Positions 33,352 to 41,572 of a stretch of 48,038 nucleotides of DNA are shown here, piece by piece. This DNA comes from Phycisphaerales bacterium (GTDB lineage Bacteria; Planctomycetota; Phycisphaerae; Phycisphaerales; UBA1924). The number at the start of each line of letters is the position of its first letter. Within the stretch, counting starts at the first letter, position 1. The stretch covers positions 1 to 48,038 of the forward strand of contig JABWBC010000010.1 in assembly GCA_013360695.1 (NCBI GenBank), given 5' to 3'. The notes below the pieces were generated by a model. It did no database searches and had not been told where the DNA came from. It worked only from the letters and a program-made list of their open reading frames with translations. Both the position numbers and the translations under genes were made by a program.

Positions 33352-33906
33352 TCAGGCCGGGATGAGCCCGAGCCTGGCGGCCCACATCAGCGTCAGCATG
33401 CTCTTGGCATCGACCAATTCCCCCGACTGGATCATCGACAGGGCACGGGTTGCCGGTGTCGGGTGCACCGTCAATTGCTCGTCGGGTTCCAGAGCCTGGC
33501 CCACCTGCGTCAAGCCGCGGGCGACGAACGCCCACATCTTTTCGTCGGACAAGCCCGGCGATGTGTAGAACCAGCCAAGGGGTGAAATTGTTGCGGCCGT
33601 GAGCCCGGTTTCTTCGCGAAGTTCGCGTGCGGCACACTTCAGGGGCTCTTCGCCCCTTTCGAGCGTTCCGGCGGGGAGTTCGAACAGGTCGGCGGAAATG
33701 GCGTGGCGTCGATTCCGGATGAGCACCACCATCGGCTCTGGGCCTTCGAGGATGGGCAGGATGATGACCGCGCCGGGGTGCTGCACATATTGACGCCGGA
33801 GCGTCGCGCCCCCCGGCGCCGGGATCGAGAGTTCAACAAAGTCGAACTTCGCGCCCTTGAAAAGAACCCGGCGCCCATCGGCGTTACAGTTGGCGGCCAT
33901 CTCCAT
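33352..33906 (-). CDS. NUDIX hydrolase (ADP-ribose pyrophosphatase-like)
   Basis: A 184-residue protein with an intact NUDIX box, GTLERGEEPLKCAARELREE then TGL (GX5EX7REUXEEXGU). PGAVIILPILEGPEPMVVLI and FYTSPGLSDEKMWAFVA support an ADP-ribose pyrophosphatase-like enzyme. Starts at 33906 or 33900 are both ATG. The gene is divergent from the MlaF-like ATPase with only 21 bp between start codons, and ends 28 bp before the M50-like gene. Confidence 0.9.
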   Translation of the reverse strand: MEMAANCNADGRRVLFKGAKFDFVELSIPAPGGATLRRQYVQHPGAVIILPILEGPEPMVVLIRNRRHAISADLFELPAGTLERGEEPLKCAARELREETGLTAATISPLGWFYTSPGLSDEKMWAFVARGLTQVGQALEPDEQLTVHPTPATRALSMIQSGELVDAKSMLTLMWAARLGLIPA

Positions 33907-33913
33907 GCCGATG

Positions 33914-33921
33914 ACGATAGT
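33914..33921. promoter_or_regulatory. Overlapping divergent -10 candidates
   Basis: ACGATAGT reads GATAGT on the plus strand (6 nt before ATG 33928) and TATCGT on the minus strand (7 nt before ATG 33906). In a 21-bp divergent gap, both genes could use nearly the same bases as -10 elements and be transcribed without leaders. Speculative. Confidence 0.3.
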
Positions 33922-33927
33922 GCCGGG

Positions 33928-34803
33928 ATGCGCGACACGATGCGGACGCCGAAGCTCTCTCCAGACCGGAACGGAACCAGCGCCCAGGTGGCCGATGCGC
34001 CCGCGATCATTCGCTTTGTCGGTGTTCACAAGCGATTCGGGCAGCAGCACGTGCTCGAAGACCTGAGCATGGATATCCCGACCGGTCTGACCACCGTCGT
34101 CATGGGCCCCTCGGGCTGCGGCAAGTCGGTGATGCTCAAGCACATCGTGGGCCTGCTCCGCCCCGATGCCGGTGAGGTATATTTCGACGGTGAGCGCATC
34201 GACCGCCTGAAGGAGCGCGAATTCCGACGCATCCGCCTCCAGATCGGGCTGCTGTTCCAGATGGCCGCCCTGTTCGACTCGATGAACGTGCTCCAGAACA
34301 TCGAGTTCCCGCTGGTCGAGCACACGACGCTTACGGCGGCGGAGCGGCGCGATCGCGTCCGCGAGGCGCTCGAGATGGTGGACCTGGCGGGTGTTGAACA
34401 GAAGCTCCCCGCACAACTCTCGGGTGGGCAGCGCAAGCGCGTCGGCCTGGCCCGCGCGATCGTCCTCCGCCCGCGCGTCGTGCTCTACGACGAACCGACC
34501 ACCGGCCTTGACCCCATCCGCTCCGACGGGATCAACGAGCTGATCATCAAGCTCCGCCGCACCATGAACGTCACCAGCATCGTGGTGACGCACGACCTGG
34601 TCTCGGCCCGCAAGGTCGCGGACCACGTCGTGATGCTCCTGGGCGGAAAAATCGCCGCCAAGGGCACATACGACCAGATCGAGAGCAATTCCGACCCGCA
34701 CGTGCAGCACTTCGTGAAGGGCCACTACGACAAGGCCGACGAGGATGTCATGCCGGCGATCCCGCATCGCAATGATTCCCCCGCCCCGGAGGCCATGCCG
34801 TGA
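33928..34803 (+). CDS. MlaF-like ABC transporter ATPase
   Basis: A 291-residue ATPase: Walker A GPSGCGKS, signature LSGGQRKRVGLARA, Walker B VVLYDEPTTGLDP and H-loop VTHD. The sequence LGLLFQMAALFDSMNV-like QIGLLFQMAALFDSMNVLQN is typical of MlaF/Ttg2A, the ATPase of MCE phospholipid transporters between outer and inner membrane. ATG 33928 is preferred; the upstream open frame overlaps the NUDIX gene. It overlaps the MCE gene by 4 nt (GTGA). Confidence 0.92.
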   Translation: MRDTMRTPKLSPDRNGTSAQVADAPAIIRFVGVHKRFGQQHVLEDLSMDIPTGLTTVVMGPSGCGKSVMLKHIVGLLRPDAGEVYFDGERIDRLKEREFRRIRLQIGLLFQMAALFDSMNVLQNIEFPLVEHTTLTAAERRDRVREALEMVDLAGVEQKLPAQLSGGQRKRVGLARAIVLRPRVVLYDEPTTGLDPIRSDGINELIIKLRRTMNVTSIVVTHDLVSARKVADHVVMLLGGKIAAKGTYDQIESNSDPHVQHFVKGHYDKADEDVMPAIPHRNDSPAPEAMP

Positions 34804-35849
34804 GCGAGAAAAAACTGGACAACGTGCCCTCGACCTTCTTTCGCGATTTCCTGACCGGCCTGACGGCGCTGGCGGGTTTGCTCGCGCTCATCTTCATGCT
34901 CTGGCGCTTCGGAGAGCTCAACAAGTCGCTCTTCGCCACGTACAACTTCGTCGTGTACGTCCCCGAGGCGGGGGGCGTGTCTGAATCGTCCCCTGTCACG
35001 CTCAACGGCGTGAGCATCGGCAGCGTCGAGACCGTCGCCTTCGATCCGTCCCGTGGCGTGAAGATGACTCTCAGCGTGCGCGAAGACACCTCCATCCCGA
35101 CCAACTTCACAGTCTACTTTGATCGCTCGTTCGTCGGGCAGACGTCGCTTCGCCTCGGCGTGCCGCGGGGGCAGGACGGAAAGCCGGCGCCGTCGCAGGA
35201 GAAGGTCGTGGCCAACGCGGAGTTCGACCGCGAGGCGGGCGACCTGTTCACGACGCTCCAAGAGATGGTCCAGGAGCCGCTGGCCAAGCTCGGCAAGGCG
35301 GCGGACGGGATCGACACGCTGGCGGCGACATACTCATCGATGGGCGACAAGATCAACGACATGATCGAGCCGCGCACGCTGTCCGACGTGGACGCGGGCG
35401 CCGCGCCGAACATCCGCAGCACGATCGCGCGGGTTGATCGCGCGATCGCCAACGCCGACAAGTGGCTGGCGGACGACACGATCCGCGGCGATGTCCGCGA
35501 GGTTGTGTCGCGGGCCAAGGCGTTCCTGGACGAGGCGAAGGCGACGGCGGAATCGATCAAGAAGGCCGCGGAGTCCGCCGACACGAAGATCGCCGATCTT
35601 TCGGCGCAGGGCAAGCAGACTCTGGCGGACGCTTCGCGCACGCTGGAGAAGACCGGCGACGCCGCGGCCGAGATCGGCGCGGTCGCCGCGAGCATCAACA
35701 AGGGCGAGGGCACCGCGGGCATGCTGGTCAAGAACCCCGACTTGTATCGCTCGCTCAACGAGACGGTGCAGCGCCTGGATCAGACGCTGGTCGAGCTAAA
35801 GCTGCTTATCCAGAAGTACAAGGACGAAGGGTTGCCGATCAAGCTGTGA
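34800..35849 (+). CDS. MCE-domain (MlaD-like) lipid transport protein
   Basis: A 349-residue protein with one N-terminal membrane helix (residues 15-38), an MCE domain (about 45-125, YNFVVYVPEAGGVSESSPVT, GVSIGSVETV) and a long helical, Ala/Lys/Asp-rich C-terminal part predicted to form a needle or tube. It starts with GTG overlapping the MlaF stop, so the two are coupled. An MlaE permease gene, normally between or next to them, is missing. Confidence 0.9.
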   Translation: MSEKKLDNVPSTFFRDFLTGLTALAGLLALIFMLWRFGELNKSLFATYNFVVYVPEAGGVSESSPVTLNGVSIGSVETVAFDPSRGVKMTLSVREDTSIPTNFTVYFDRSFVGQTSLRLGVPRGQDGKPAPSQEKVVANAEFDREAGDLFTTLQEMVQEPLAKLGKAADGIDTLAATYSSMGDKINDMIEPRTLSDVDAGAAPNIRSTIARVDRAIANADKWLADDTIRGDVREVVSRAKAFLDEAKATAESIKKAAESADTKIADLSAQGKQTLADASRTLEKTGDAAAEIGAVAASINKGEGTAGMLVKNPDLYRSLNETVQRLDQTLVELKLLIQKYKDEGLPIKL

Positions 35850-36192: not shown

Positions 36193-38061
36193 GTGACCAT
36201 TTCCAAACTCTCGGCCACTTCTGCAACTCGCTTCGCGACATGCCTCATCGCGGGCTTTGCCGGCGTGGCGCTGGCGCCGTCGCTTCTGGCTCAAGACTCC
36301 GGCACGCGCAAACCGCCGCCGCCAACCGAGGTCGTCGCTCGCCCTTCTGGCCCGGGCGCGGAGTTCCTCGCGGCGTACCGTCAGGCCGGCCGCCCCACGC
36401 TCGCGATCGTCGAGTACATCCGTCCCTCACGTGACGGCTCGCGCGACGTCGAGACCGCCGAGATCTCCATGCTGGGCGGGCGCACCCGCGAGCACTTCCG
36501 TTCTAGCCAGGTGACGCTCCTGCCCGAAAGCGCAACGGCCCGCGTCGCCAAGCGCAACGACATCGCCGAGGTTGCCGCGACCGACCCGCGCCAGGCCGCC
36601 CGCGTCATCGCCGACGAATCAAAGGCCGACGTCGTCATTACGCTGACGCTCGTGCCCCAGGAGGGCCGCAACGACGGCGTGAAGTTCCTGGCCCATTACT
36701 ACGTGATCGACGTCCGCCGCGATCAGATCGTCGCGGAATGGCCGTTCGAGATGTACCCGCGCGGCGGACGATCGGTGCTCGACGCGTCGGACATGAGCTA
36801 CTACGCCGACGCGATCGCCGACGACATCAAGAGCAAGTTTGTCGAGTTCTACGCGTCGCCCGACGCCGCCATCGCCGGCATCCGCTACGAGATGGACTTT
36901 TCGGGCAAGATCAGCTTCGCCGACACGCAGTCGATCACGGCGCTGCTCCGGCGCATCCCGGGCGTGCAGGACGTGCAGCTCCGCCGAGCCCAGTCGATCA
37001 CACGCGACAGCTATCGCGCCGAGTACCAGCTCTGGTACACCGGGCGCGGCACGGACCTGGCCTATTCGCTGCAGAGCGGCGCGTGGACCGAGCTCGGCAA
37101 GTGGGCCGCCCTCCCCAGCTTCCGCGACGGCAAGGCCGAGATCATGCTGGGCACGCTCCCCGCGGCGGAGAGCCCGTGGCTCCATCGCGCGACCGCGAAC
37201 AATGCCCAGGCACGCCAGGCGCTCGTCGAGGCCTATCGCTCCGCGGGAGAGCCCAAGGTCGGCGTGCTCGTGAGCCGCATGTCGGGCGACAACACAACGT
37301 GGGTCTGGTGGCGCTGGGTGCGCGAGAACTGGAACAGCGACCAGACCAAGATCACGTTCACCGACGACACGACGGCGCTCCGCGAGTACGGCGCCGCGAC
37401 GATCCAGAACTCCGTGCTCAAGCGTCTCTCGGACCTCGGCATCGCCTGCGTGGATGAGGAGCAGCTGCGCTCCGCGATCCTGCGCGACAAGGACCGCCTG
37501 TCCCAGATCTCGTCCGACGAGGACCTCGCCAAGCTCGTCGAGCGCGAGCTCGGCGTGCAGGTTCTCCTCACGGGCGACGGGAGCGTGTTCGGCACGCCCT
37601 CGCAGCGATCCGTGTCGTACACGTTCCGCGCCAAGAGCACGTCGGACGGGCGCGTGCTCGCCGCGACCGATCCCTCGACGCGCTTGCTGGATGCTTCTCC
37701 CAACGCCGTCGAGAGCGCCGCGCCCGCGATGGCCGACGAACTGGCCGCCCAGATCGTCGACGGCCTGATCTCCTCGTGGTCGTCGTCGCACCGCCTGTCG
37801 GTGCTCGTCACCGACGTGCGCACGCCCGACGAACTCCCCAGGCTTCGCACCTCGATCGAGAAGCTCACGGGCGTGACGGGCACGAAGCTGTACGAGCTCG
37901 ACCGAGCCAAGGACAACGCGATCGCCCGCTTCGACGTGATGTACTCGGGCGACGCCGACAAACTGCTGGAGGCGATCCGATCCGTCAACGAGCCCGGCTT
38001 TGTGTTCGACATGAACGCCGGCACGCGCGACCGGGTTACCATCAGGCTGAAGAACCAGTGA
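36193..38061 (+). CDS. Periplasmic protein with duplicated CsgG/LpoB-like modules
   Basis: A 622-residue exported protein; signal peptide TRFATCLIAGFAGVALAPSLLAQ. Start is GTG 36193, with AGGAG 7 nt before it. Two copies of an A-B unit are visible. A1 starts FLAAYRQAGRPTLAIVEYIR (about residue 58) and includes KADVVITLTLVPQEG; A2 starts LVEAYRSAGEPKVGVLVSRM (about 344) and includes GVQVLLTGDGSVFG. These look like CsgG/LpoB-fold modules. B1 (ITALLRRIPGVQDVQLRRAQ, YTGRGTDLAYSL) and B2 (IEKLTGVTGTKLYELDRAKD, YSGDADKLLEAI) are matching small alpha/beta modules. First gene of a five-gene envelope operon. Family names are inferred from pattern, not searched. Confidence 0.7.
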   Translation: MTISKLSATSATRFATCLIAGFAGVALAPSLLAQDSGTRKPPPPTEVVARPSGPGAEFLAAYRQAGRPTLAIVEYIRPSRDGSRDVETAEISMLGGRTREHFRSSQVTLLPESATARVAKRNDIAEVAATDPRQAARVIADESKADVVITLTLVPQEGRNDGVKFLAHYYVIDVRRDQIVAEWPFEMYPRGGRSVLDASDMSYYADAIADDIKSKFVEFYASPDAAIAGIRYEMDFSGKISFADTQSITALLRRIPGVQDVQLRRAQSITRDSYRAEYQLWYTGRGTDLAYSLQSGAWTELGKWAALPSFRDGKAEIMLGTLPAAESPWLHRATANNAQARQALVEAYRSAGEPKVGVLVSRMSGDNTTWVWWRWVRENWNSDQTKITFTDDTTALREYGAATIQNSVLKRLSDLGIACVDEEQLRSAILRDKDRLSQISSDEDLAKLVERELGVQVLLTGDGSVFGTPSQRSVSYTFRAKSTSDGRVLAATDPSTRLLDASPNAVESAAPAMADELAAQIVDGLISSWSSSHRLSVLVTDVRTPDELPRLRTSIEKLTGVTGTKLYELDRAKDNAIARFDVMYSGDADKLLEAIRSVNEPGFVFDMNAGTRDRVTIRLKNQ

Positions 38062-38146
38062 CCGAATCGCTCGCCGCGCGTCGCTTCGTCTGGCGTACGG
38101 GCGAGACCAACACCCTCACGAACCGCATTTCATGGAGAGGAGTTTC

Positions 38147-38794
38147 ATGTTTCCCGAAGGCCATCACGGTTATTTTGTCACCAAGTCCCTCTCGCTTGCG
38201 ATCGGCGCCGGCGCGATCATCGCTTCGAGCGGCTGCACGCCGCCCCAGGCGCCCGGGCACGGGCGCGTCGATTCCGGCGCCGTCACCCGCGCCGAGGAGG
38301 ACTCGGGGCAGATCTATCTCGCCGACATGCGCGAGGCGAGCGACCGCATGGTCGATTCGCTCATCAAGGACCTGACCGAGCTGCAGCAGAACGAGCTTCG
38401 CCAGGGCGGCGACTACGAGTGCACGCTGGTCTATGGCGACATCGCGAACAAGTCCCGCGCCATGCCGACCACGGACTTCGAGTACGTCCGTGAGCGGATG
38501 CGCGACATGATGCTCTCGAGCCGCGAGTTCCGCAAGAGCTTCCGCGTGGTCGAGAGCCGCGACCGCTACGAGCAGGTGCGGATCCGCGAGGAAGGCGCCT
38601 CCGACCCGCTCCAGCGTAATACCGGCATCACCTCCAACCGCGTGCTCAACCCCGCGTTCACCTACTACCTCAACGGCAACACGTTCCAGCTCGATCGCGG
38701 CACGACCCGCGGCTACTACTTCAACTTCCAGCTCATGCGCGCCAGCGACAGCGAGATCGTGTGGAGCCACAAGTACGAGGTGACGTACCGGTGA
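38147..38794 (+). CDS. LpoB-like lipoprotein 1
   Basis: A 215-residue lipoprotein: signal with lipobox IASSGC. The body (YLADMREASDRMVDSLIKDL, LVYGDIANKSRAMPTTDFEY, VRERMRDMMLSSREFRKSFR) follows the pattern of LpoB, the outer-membrane activator of a peptidoglycan synthase. GAGAGGAG lies 4-5 nt before ATG 38147. Its stop overlaps the next start by 4 nt. The role in peptidoglycan activation is an inference from family. Confidence 0.75.
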   Translation: MFPEGHHGYFVTKSLSLAIGAGAIIASSGCTPPQAPGHGRVDSGAVTRAEEDSGQIYLADMREASDRMVDSLIKDLTELQQNELRQGGDYECTLVYGDIANKSRAMPTTDFEYVRERMRDMMLSSREFRKSFRVVESRDRYEQVRIREEGASDPLQRNTGITSNRVLNPAFTYYLNGNTFQLDRGTTRGYYFNFQLMRASDSEIVWSHKYEVTYR

Positions 38795-39420
38795 CGCACG
38801 CCCCGCCCAACCCGGAGGGCCTCCGTGGCACTCACCGCTTCATCCGCTCGCTCTCTTCGGCGGCGGCGTTTGGGGTGCTGCTGCTGATCCCCGCGTGCGC
38901 CTCGGGCCCGGCTCACATGCAGGGCGAGTCCTCCACCATCGCGTTCGAGGACATCACCGACACCGCCAAGGAAATGGCCGAGAAGCTGGCCGCCAGCGAT
39001 TTCCTGAAGGACCGCACGCCGAATTCGCCGCCCGTGACGATCACGCTCAGCAAGGTCGTGAACTACACGTCCGACGTGATCCGCGACTCGGAGCGCTGGT
39101 ACCTGATGTACCGAGTGCTGGATTCCGTGCCGCTGCGCGAACTCCGGACCAACAAGAACATCAAGCTCGTGATCCCGCGTGAGCGGCTGGAGGACCTTCG
39201 CATCGCGGCCGGTGACCCGGACCTTCCGCCGCTGGGCGAGCAGCGTGATCCCACCCACGTCATGGACGCGACGTTCCGTTCCGTGACCTACCAGGCGGGC
39301 AAGGCCCGCACCGACGCGTACTACTGCCAGTACCGAATCACCAACGTCCGCTCGGGCGAGGTCGCCTGGAGCGACGGCTTTGAGTTCAAGCGTTCCGCCC
39401 TCGGGCGGCTGATCGACTAG
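38791..39420 (+). CDS. LpoB-like lipoprotein 2
   Basis: A 209-residue lipoprotein with lipobox LIPAC. EDITDTAKEMAEKLAASDFL, PVTITLSKVVNYTSDVIRDS and the end YRITNVRSGEVAWSDGFEFK parallel the preceding protein (LMRASDSEIVWSHKYEV), so the two are diverged paralogues. Start GTG 38791 overlaps the upstream stop (GTGA). The next gene begins 2 bp after its stop, so translation is probably coupled. Confidence 0.72.
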   Translation: MTHAPPNPEGLRGTHRFIRSLSSAAAFGVLLLIPACASGPAHMQGESSTIAFEDITDTAKEMAEKLAASDFLKDRTPNSPPVTITLSKVVNYTSDVIRDSERWYLMYRVLDSVPLRELRTNKNIKLVIPRERLEDLRIAAGDPDLPPLGEQRDPTHVMDATFRSVTYQAGKARTDAYYCQYRITNVRSGEVAWSDGFEFKRSALGRLID

Positions 39421-39422
39421 GC

Positions 39423-41156
39423 ATGCTGTCGCAAGCGTCATCTCGTTGGGGGGAAGCGGGCGCGATCGTGTGCGTCGCGCTGGCCGCTGCGTCGGCCGGT
39501 TGCACCAACGGCGATCCGGATTTCGACATCCGGGCCGACGTCGCGCGCGGCGACTACTCACGGGCCGAGTCCAAACTGCGCGACTATGTTGGCGCCAACG
39601 ACAAACGCCCGCTCGAGTACCTTCTCGATCGCTCGCGCCTGGGAATCGTCACGCTCGCCGACGGGCGGCCCGACGCCGCCGAGCCCTGGCTCGCCGAGTC
39701 CTTCGCAACGCTCCGGCGTCAGGGGCTCAACGAGAATCGCCAGGTCGGCGCGGCGGTGCTGGGCGAATCGGGCCAGCTTTTCTGGAAGGGCGAGCCCTTC
39801 GAGCAGGCGCTCACGCTGCACTACACCGCGCTCTGCTACGCGATGCTGAACCAGTGGGACAACGCGCGTGCGGCCGCGAACGCGTCGCTCTTCCAGCTGC
39901 GCAGCTATGCCCAGGGCGATCAATCGCTGAGCAAGGCCGAGCTGGCGCAGCGGGCCGCGACGCAGGACGAGGCGTGGCTCGACAAGGGATACGCCAACGT
40001 CAAGACCGATTTCGCGCTCGGATATTTCGTCGCAGGAGTCGCGAACTTCGCGTTGGGGCGGAGCGACCCGGACCGCGCGAACGAGGCCCGCGACTTCTTC
40101 CGAGAGGCCTTCACGCTACGCCCTGATCTTCGCCCCATCGCCGAGGCCATCGTCGACGGCCGGGCCAACACGGTCGTGTTCGTCGACGCCGGCTCCGGGC
40201 CGTCGAAGCAGCGTTACGGCGACGACGGCGTGCTCACTCGTTTCGCGGGCGGCGGTGGCGCGGTCGGCTCGCTCGCGATCTCAGTCAACAACGCCCCCAG
40301 CAACGCCGCGCTCGCCTGTGATGTCCAGACGATGGCGAGCGATCATCGCTGGAACAACCTCGAAGATGTGCGCCAGTTCAAGAGCCTCTTGGGCACCGGC
40401 CTGATCGCGGGCGGCGTGATCGTCGCGGGTACCAGCGACAATCGAAGCAGCGAGGGACGGCGGAACGCGCAGCTCGCGACCGGCCTTGCGATGGTGCTCG
40501 CGGGCCTTGCCGTCAAGGCGACCGCGCAGGCGGACATCCGCCACTGCGAAGTGATGCCGGCATCGATCCTGGTTGGCGCGACGACGATCGACGGTTCCGC
40601 GACGCTTGGTATCCATGGCCCGGGCCTCGACATGGTCTTGCCCGGCGTCCTGGGGCCCAGCGCCGCCGAGCCGCTCCGTGTCGTCTACGTGCGTGTGCCC
40701 GCGCAGCCGGTGCCCGCGTGGGCATCGTCGGGGCGCGTGGTGTACGCGACCGACTCGCTCGCCACCCGCGTGCCGGGCGACGACCTGCCCTACATCCTGG
40801 GCGGGCGCTGCTGCCGAACACCGAGCGCCGAGACGCTGCGCCTGTACCAGGCCTCGGGCAACCTCACGAATCTGTCGCTGATGGACCTGCAGAACCTCTA
40901 CACCGACGAGGGCATCACGTGGCGCGCCGGGGATGAAATCGACGGCCCGAAGCGTCACATCCTGAACGCCGGCACATCGCTCGTCGCGCCCGTCGCGGGC
41001 TCGACCGGCTTTGCCCGCCTCGTCGGCCAAGAGCACCCGCCGTACCAGCCCAAGTCCGCCCGCGTGAAAGAACTCGCCGCGTTCTATGCGGCCCGTGCAA
41101 CGACCATGTCCGCGAACCCGACAAATACGATCACTCCCACGGAGAAGAAGCCATGA
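39423..41156 (+). CDS. COG3014-like TPR lipoprotein
   Basis: A 577-residue lipoprotein with lipobox ASAGC. Residues about 35-230 are helical repeats (RGDYSRAESKLRDYV, FWKGEPFEQALTLHYTALCY, ALGYFVAGVANFALGRSD); FWKGEPFEQ...YYAL-type spacing recalls COG3014. The C-terminal half has NTVVFVDAGSGPSKQRYGDD and beta-rich segments. COG3014 genes often travel with lpoB and ycfL in other bacteria, which agrees with this operon. Function unknown; it may scaffold envelope complexes. Confidence 0.7.
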   Translation: MLSQASSRWGEAGAIVCVALAAASAGCTNGDPDFDIRADVARGDYSRAESKLRDYVGANDKRPLEYLLDRSRLGIVTLADGRPDAAEPWLAESFATLRRQGLNENRQVGAAVLGESGQLFWKGEPFEQALTLHYTALCYAMLNQWDNARAAANASLFQLRSYAQGDQSLSKAELAQRAATQDEAWLDKGYANVKTDFALGYFVAGVANFALGRSDPDRANEARDFFREAFTLRPDLRPIAEAIVDGRANTVVFVDAGSGPSKQRYGDDGVLTRFAGGGGAVGSLAISVNNAPSNAALACDVQTMASDHRWNNLEDVRQFKSLLGTGLIAGGVIVAGTSDNRSSEGRRNAQLATGLAMVLAGLAVKATAQADIRHCEVMPASILVGATTIDGSATLGIHGPGLDMVLPGVLGPSAAEPLRVVYVRVPAQPVPAWASSGRVVYATDSLATRVPGDDLPYILGGRCCRTPSAETLRLYQASGNLTNLSLMDLQNLYTDEGITWRAGDEIDGPKRHILNAGTSLVAPVAGSTGFARLVGQEHPPYQPKSARVKELAAFYAARATTMSANPTNTITPTEKKP

Positions 41157-41572
41157 AAAGCAGCACGTCCCATACGCTCGCCCGCGCCATGCTCCTCGCG
41201 ACGCCGATTCTGCTCGGCGCGTGCGACCCCGTGAAGGCGCCGGGCGCCGCCAAGGCCGATCCGCTCCCGTCCGCCGCGTATCCGCAGATCGTCGCGGCCG
41301 AGGGGCTCAGCGGCTACATCGCCTACGACGCGCCGAAGGTCAGCGCCACCAGGCCGATGGAAGTAACGGTGCCCGTGCGTGCCCTCACCGACAACCAGGA
41401 TCTCAACATCCAATACCGCTTCTCGTTCTTCGATCAGAACGGGGTGCCGCTCAACGACAACCCCGACTGGCGCTTCCTCAAGCTCCCGTCGCGCAATCAG
41501 CGATTCCTCAGCGGCTTTGCCCGCGAGCAATCCGCGGTCGATTGGCGCCTCGAAATCCGCCCGGCGAAGTGA
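41153..41572 (+). CDS. YcfL/DUF1425-like lipoprotein
   Basis: A 139-residue lipoprotein, lipobox LLGAC. The domain MEVTVPVRALTDNQDLNIQY then RFSFFDQNGVPLNDNPDWRF resembles YcfL (DUF1425), encoded next to lpoB in enterobacteria. ATG 41153 overlaps the previous stop (ATGA). It closes the operon; the next 163 bp before convergent eno hold no gene and no clear terminator. Confidence 0.72.
   Translation: MKSSTSHTLARAMLLATPILLGACDPVKAPGAAKADPLPSAAYPQIVAAEGLSGYIAYDAPKVSATRPMEVTVPVRALTDNQDLNIQYRFSFFDQNGVPLNDNPDWRFLKLPSRNQRFLSGFAREQSAVDWRLEIRPAK

Follow-up and report, generated by a model that had tools for sequence, protein, structure and literature searches.

LpoB is an outer-membrane lipoprotein of E. 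coli that activates PBP1B, a class A synthase, by binding the UB2H domain of that enzyme (PMC3060616, PMC6220978), and it has been portrayed as an innovation that arose recently in enterobacteria and is bound up with PBP1B (PMC3060616). Its gene adjoins ycfL, a member of the DUF1425 family, in the order hinT-ycfL-lpoB-thiK. The equivalent locus of Aeromonas caviae (NZ_AP026896.1) reads hinT-COG3014-ycfL-lpoB-thiK, the two outer names being assigned by eye to open reading frames (ORFs), and thus holds a COG3014-like gene that the E. coli locus does not. The 4.9 Mb A. caviae record (L319) carries no annotation at this place and is filed as plasmid pKAM479_3; its size and genes look chromosomal. 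No paper on the function of DUF1425 or COG3014 was found in the literature. Planctomycetes are named among the bacteria that build their walls without class A PBPs (PMC8406291), and an LpoB-type operon from this phylum is the subject of the present analysis.

The operon lies within a 48,038-nucleotide stretch of a Phycisphaerales bacterium (the window), on contig C162 of a source genome (G000) of 3.84 Mb that is 89% complete; its close relatives are metagenome-assembled genomes (MAGs) of Phycisphaerales or Phycisphaerae bacterium. Five genes follow each other on the forward strand: gene 1 (36193..38061), which starts with GTG and encodes 622 residues; genes 2 (38132..38794) and 3 (38761..39420), named LpoB-a and LpoB-b here; gene 4 (39423..41156), a COG3014-like TPR lipoprotein; and gene 5 (41153..41572), a DUF1425/YcfL-family lipoprotein. 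Genes 2 and 3 overlap by 34 bp and genes 4 and 5 by 4 bp, genes 3 and 4 are 2 bp apart, and only the 70-bp gap between genes 1 and 2 is wider, so the co-directional arrangement with three tight junctions out of four, as first read from the sequence, is borne out by the ORF coordinates. Gene 2 more likely begins at a GTG at position 38177 than at 38132. Lipobox cysteines are legible in genes 2 to 5, while gene 1 has a signal peptide without a lipobox. A rough lipobox scan of the named loci was positive for most of the genes 2 to 5 found there and for 2/26 gene 1 homologues, counts that are lower bounds because start codons in the homologues were set mechanically. The cysteine of gene 5 is followed by Asp, which in E. 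coli lipoproteins is an inner-membrane retention signal and would speak against an outer-membrane location if planctomycetes sort their lipoproteins in the same way. An ABC ATPase gene and an MlaD-domain (PF02470) gene form a co-directional pair at 33703-35849 of the window, about 340 bp upstream of gene 1. Such mlaF/mlaD-like genes adjoin the operon only in the window's genus; Mla is therefore not regarded as part of the system, and a functional tie to it was dropped.

Genes 2 and 3 passed the cut-off of the Pfam LpoB family (PF13036, 22.3 bits) narrowly, with 28.2 and 23.7 bits, and scored 19.0 and 19.3 bits against the NCBIfam LpoB equivalog TIGR02722, far below its cut-off of 110.55. Gene 5 is clearly DUF1425 (PF07233, 47 bits against a cut-off of 28.3). 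LpoB-a (lipobox SSGC) and LpoB-b (lipobox IPAC) are diverged paralogues (hhalign probability 99.2%, E 2e-19), and they formed separate groups when 75 LpoB proteins were placed in a tree. The LpoB proteins of E. coli and Aeromonas sat among the canonical planctomycete LpoBs, most of which had been taken from operons that pair gene 4 with LpoB, in this arbitrarily rooted tree with its long E. coli branch. The linker between the lipobox cysteine and the LpoB domain measures about 23-35 residues in LpoB-a, in Aeromonas and in canonical planctomycete LpoBs and is shorter still in LpoB-b, whereas that of E. coli LpoB is Pro-rich and about 50 residues long. The short linkers fit an action close to the outer membrane rather than a reach across the wall. 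The same genome carries an extra LpoB/CsgG/FlgT_M-like gene (L170:1-600, G000:C158:265-525; PF13036 at E 7e-7), and two genomes of the window's genus, G003 and G001, gave similar matches.

Gene 4 reached only a sub-threshold TPR match in Pfam, and its profile found no match among PDB sequences. Its predicted structure (pLDDT 83.5, pTM 0.83) shows a TPR domain at residues ~30-247; for this N-terminal half of the protein a fold search returned TPR proteins only. A beta region comes next, then a pair of long helices (~314-336 and ~344-366) with hydrophobic and Gly-rich sequence across the alignment, then the conserved motif AD-x-R-x(4)-LP, and finally a C-terminal module at ~432-562. This last module, which belongs to no Pfam family, has an ORF to itself, close to LpoB or to the core of gene 4, in four other planctomycete loci (L298:2658-3542, L299:4045-4527, L300:6519-7508 and L301:5180-5764). 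I take the gene 4 family to be COG3014. The sequence-only reading had named two diverged LpoB-like lipoproteins, a COG3014-like TPR lipoprotein and a YcfL-like lipoprotein, and had pointed to a known association of the three families in other phyla. These identifications stand, given the Pfam scores, the paralogy, the lipoboxes (LGAC in gene 5), the predicted TPR domain and the gene 4 homologue that lies beside ycfL and lpoB in Aeromonas.

Comparison with that locus showed how much is shared. Profiles built from the planctomycete families, for gene 4 from the core of its family, matched the COG3014-like, YcfL and LpoB proteins of A. caviae at 2e-17, 6e-14 and 3e-17, respectively. These homologues of genes 4, 5 and 2/3 are adjacent and co-directional, and for gene 4 the Aeromonas homologue and that from planctomycete locus L302 share 35% identity over 94%. 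The Aeromonas locus differs in having a single LpoB gene, the order COG3014-ycfL-lpoB, a gene 4 homologue that ends without the C-terminal module, no gene 1, and hinT and thiK as flanks. At the E. coli locus a DUF1425 gene likewise adjoins that of an LpoB-family outer-membrane lipoprotein, but no gene 4 homologue is present, and both the class A synthase and the UB2H on which E. coli LpoB acts are missing here. What is new in the window's operon is a duplication, a fusion and an added gene, all upon a known and widespread COG3014-YcfL-LpoB module.

Within the Phycisphaerae, the core of LpoB-a, LpoB-b, gene 4 and DUF1425 is kept in about 80 loci. Homologues of gene 4 were found in 60/120 genomes of the family and of DUF1425 in 69/120, and the two are mostly neighbours. 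Gene order was compared over 119 stretches, which come from two locus sets overlapping in genomes: 53 read LpoB-a, LpoB-b, gene 4, DUF1425, and another 31 read the same with gene 1 at the end. The genes flanking the module vary from genus to genus and no gene family recurs in the neighbourhoods examined; since the set recurs in most of the 119 stretches although its flanks differ, the five genes are not a chance grouping, and the conserved neighbourhood that had been proposed as a check was found. In several relatives (L078, L082, L086 and L089) the module is followed immediately by purE and/or purK, as judged by eye.

Gene 1 was expected from the initial reading to be a large duplicated protein at the front of the operon, built on a CsgG/LpoB-like fold; the duplication and the fold held up, while the front position turned out to be a peculiarity of the window's genus. 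AlphaFold2 divided the protein into modules A1 (~56-222), B1 (~230-321), A2 (~338-530) and B2 (~533-620), with the same order of secondary-structure elements in both halves, and hhalign confirmed the A-B-A-B duplication (A1-A2 probability 96.8%, E 2e-10; B1-B2 97.4%, E 1e-11; whole halves E 1e-17). The model was built with 24 homologues (pLDDT 72, pTM 0.38), at which its modules are credible and their arrangement is not. Superposed on known structures, A2 scored highest with the periplasmic proteins TolB (Z 11.6, rmsd 2.3 over 118 residues) and FlgT of the Vibrio flagellar ring (Z 11.4, 146 residues), followed by CsgG and PelC (Z ~10), GNA1162 (8.9), LpoB (8.3) and LptE (8.1), and FlgT was also its top Foldseek match (E 2.7e-6). 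As modelled, A2 is therefore of the TolB-N/CsgG/FlgT-M/LpoB fold, and A1 is tied to it through the hhalign match. The likeness ends there for the described proteins: FlgT and the N-terminal domain of TolB sit in other neighbourhoods and share no sequence similarity with gene 1 in Pfam and PDB searches, nor do they have its duplicated architecture, and GNA1162 (DUF799) of Neisseria is a single-domain lipoprotein of another family. Gene 1 had no Pfam match, single-sequence and profile searches of PDB sequences gave none either, and hhalign detected no sequence-level link between its modules and the LpoB, DUF1425 or gene 4 families of the operon; any common descent of the A modules and LpoB would thus be argued from the fold.

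The distribution of gene 1 sets it apart from the core. A profile search was positive in 31/163 family genomes, two of them weakly, and with only ~29 firm cases gene 1 is inessential to the module. It leads the operon in 6 of the 119 stretches, all from the window's genus, and stands downstream in ~35; outside that genus, DUF1425 lies directly upstream of gene 1 in 24/24 loci whose contig reaches that far. Gene 1 is hence an optional member that switched position, not a fixed leader. Most of its relatives read A-B-A and do without the last B module. One homologue, in G014 (L172:6336-9752), is a single ORF of 1138 aa with a C-terminal subtilase (PF00082, E 7e-34), and its neighbours are a pair of LpoB-like genes and another, second gene for DUF1425.

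The sequence-only reading had also suggested a cell-wall synthase activator or an outer-membrane lipoprotein complex of new composition, and had proposed co-occurrence with class A PBPs as a check. The defining domain of class A PBPs is GT51. This domain (PF00912) was found in 1/120 family genomes, while the same search was positive in 10/14 controls. It was absent from the source genome and from the genus mates G002 and G003, which are 94% and 93% complete. No UB2H-bearing PBP was seen in the family genomes and no UB2H match at all in the source genome; the UB2H matches that did occur lie mostly in ORFs of ~1100-1200 or 700-800 aa, the sizes of Mfd and UvrB, to which I assign them by length; that a docking site is missing is supported independently by the lack of GT51. 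Transpeptidases were present in 120/120 family genomes, usually two, as expected of class B PBPs. With GT51 absent and transpeptidases present, the wall must be made by other polymerases.

The same question was put to 334 Planctomycetota genomes, many of them incomplete MAGs. LpoB was found in 197 of them, a member of the gene 4 family in 180 and GT51 in 47; 162 have LpoB and gene 4 together. Uncorrected for relatedness, LpoB and gene 4 co-occurred strongly (Fisher odds ratio 30.6), whereas LpoB was independent of GT51 (odds ratio 1.03, p 1.0), and by the coordinates of the strongest matches LpoB adjoins gene 4 in 49/49 genomes compared. The LpoB family therefore travels with gene 4, not with a PBP, and in bacteria that nearly all do without class A PBPs an LpoB-type operon must serve another role. 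The proposed co-occurrence thus failed, and with it the activator in its known form; of the two suggestions, only the lipoprotein complex of new composition is retained, as an interpretation.

Taken together, the operon probably specifies a periplasmic complex of lipoproteins that is anchored in the outer membrane and elaborates on the COG3014-YcfL-LpoB module; I infer the formation of this complex, its place at the outer membrane, its stoichiometry and its physiological role. Gene 4 would be the scaffold: lipid-anchored, it would contact other proteins through its TPR domain, and its hydrophobic, Gly-rich pair of helices may dip into the membrane. The two diverged LpoBs and YcfL would be its obligatory partners, LpoB-a and LpoB-b possibly as a heteromer. 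Gene 1, predicted to be soluble and to alternate two TolB-N/CsgG-type modules with two alpha/beta modules, may be an accessory periplasmic subunit that docks on the lipoproteins in the manner of TolB on Pal, or of FlgT within the flagellar ring. Such a complex would need no class A PBP, and its most plausible roles are in outer-membrane or wall integrity or in tuning synthesis by SEDS and class B PBPs.

The last of these roles can also be read as the whole function of the operon, which would then follow the logic of LpoB with a SEDS/class B PBP synthase as its target. The transpeptidases found throughout the family suit such an activator, and regulation of wall synthesis from the outer membrane is an established principle (PMC3060616). 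Nevertheless, no recurrent family stands beside the module in the neighbourhoods examined, so that nothing there ties it to wall synthesis, and the half of the family without a gene 4 homologue has kept its transpeptidases, and I regard this explanation as unlikely. Less likely again, and in my estimate quite improbable, is an outer-membrane export pore or assembly platform in which proteins of CsgG fold would make up a ring and the hydrophobic pair of gene 4 would insert into the membrane. The CsgG-type fold of gene 1 and the combination of a Gly-rich helical pair with a TPR scaffold are in keeping with it, but genes 1 to 3 gave no match to the CsgG family (PF03783) up to E 1, no linked substrate gene was seen, most members of the module lack gene 1, and the fold is common to many proteins that form no channel, TolB, LpoB and LptE among them. 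An E. coli-type activator, in which LpoB-a and LpoB-b stimulate a class A PBP through UB2H, can draw on the Pfam scores of genes 2 and 3 and on the grouping of E. coli and Aeromonas LpoB with canonical planctomycete LpoBs, but is very hard to sustain against the near-total absence of GT51 from the family, its independence of LpoB across the phylum, UB2H matches of mostly Mfd or UvrB size, equivalog scores of 19 against 110 bits, the short linkers and the published listing of planctomycetes without class A PBPs (PMC8406291).

Beyond the preferred reading of a lipoprotein complex, the LpoB family appears to be older than PBP1B activation and separable from it. A more tentative proposal, to which I give somewhat less than an even chance, is that COG3014-YcfL-LpoB forms an envelope complex of ancient origin that has a function of its own, that PBP1B activation was a late enterobacterial co-option, and that planctomycetes keep the older function. 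Enterobacteria would then have retained ycfL-lpoB without a neighbouring COG3014 gene and gained the long linker, and planctomycetes, mostly without class A PBPs, would have added a second LpoB and gene 1.

The LpoB family is thus widespread in a phylum mostly without class A PBPs, and is locked there to another partner gene. This makes it a testable claim that PBP activation was not the original job of LpoB, and that YcfL and COG3014 belong with it. The literature on such an operon is almost nil, and the operon also opens a way into the biology of the planctomycete envelope.
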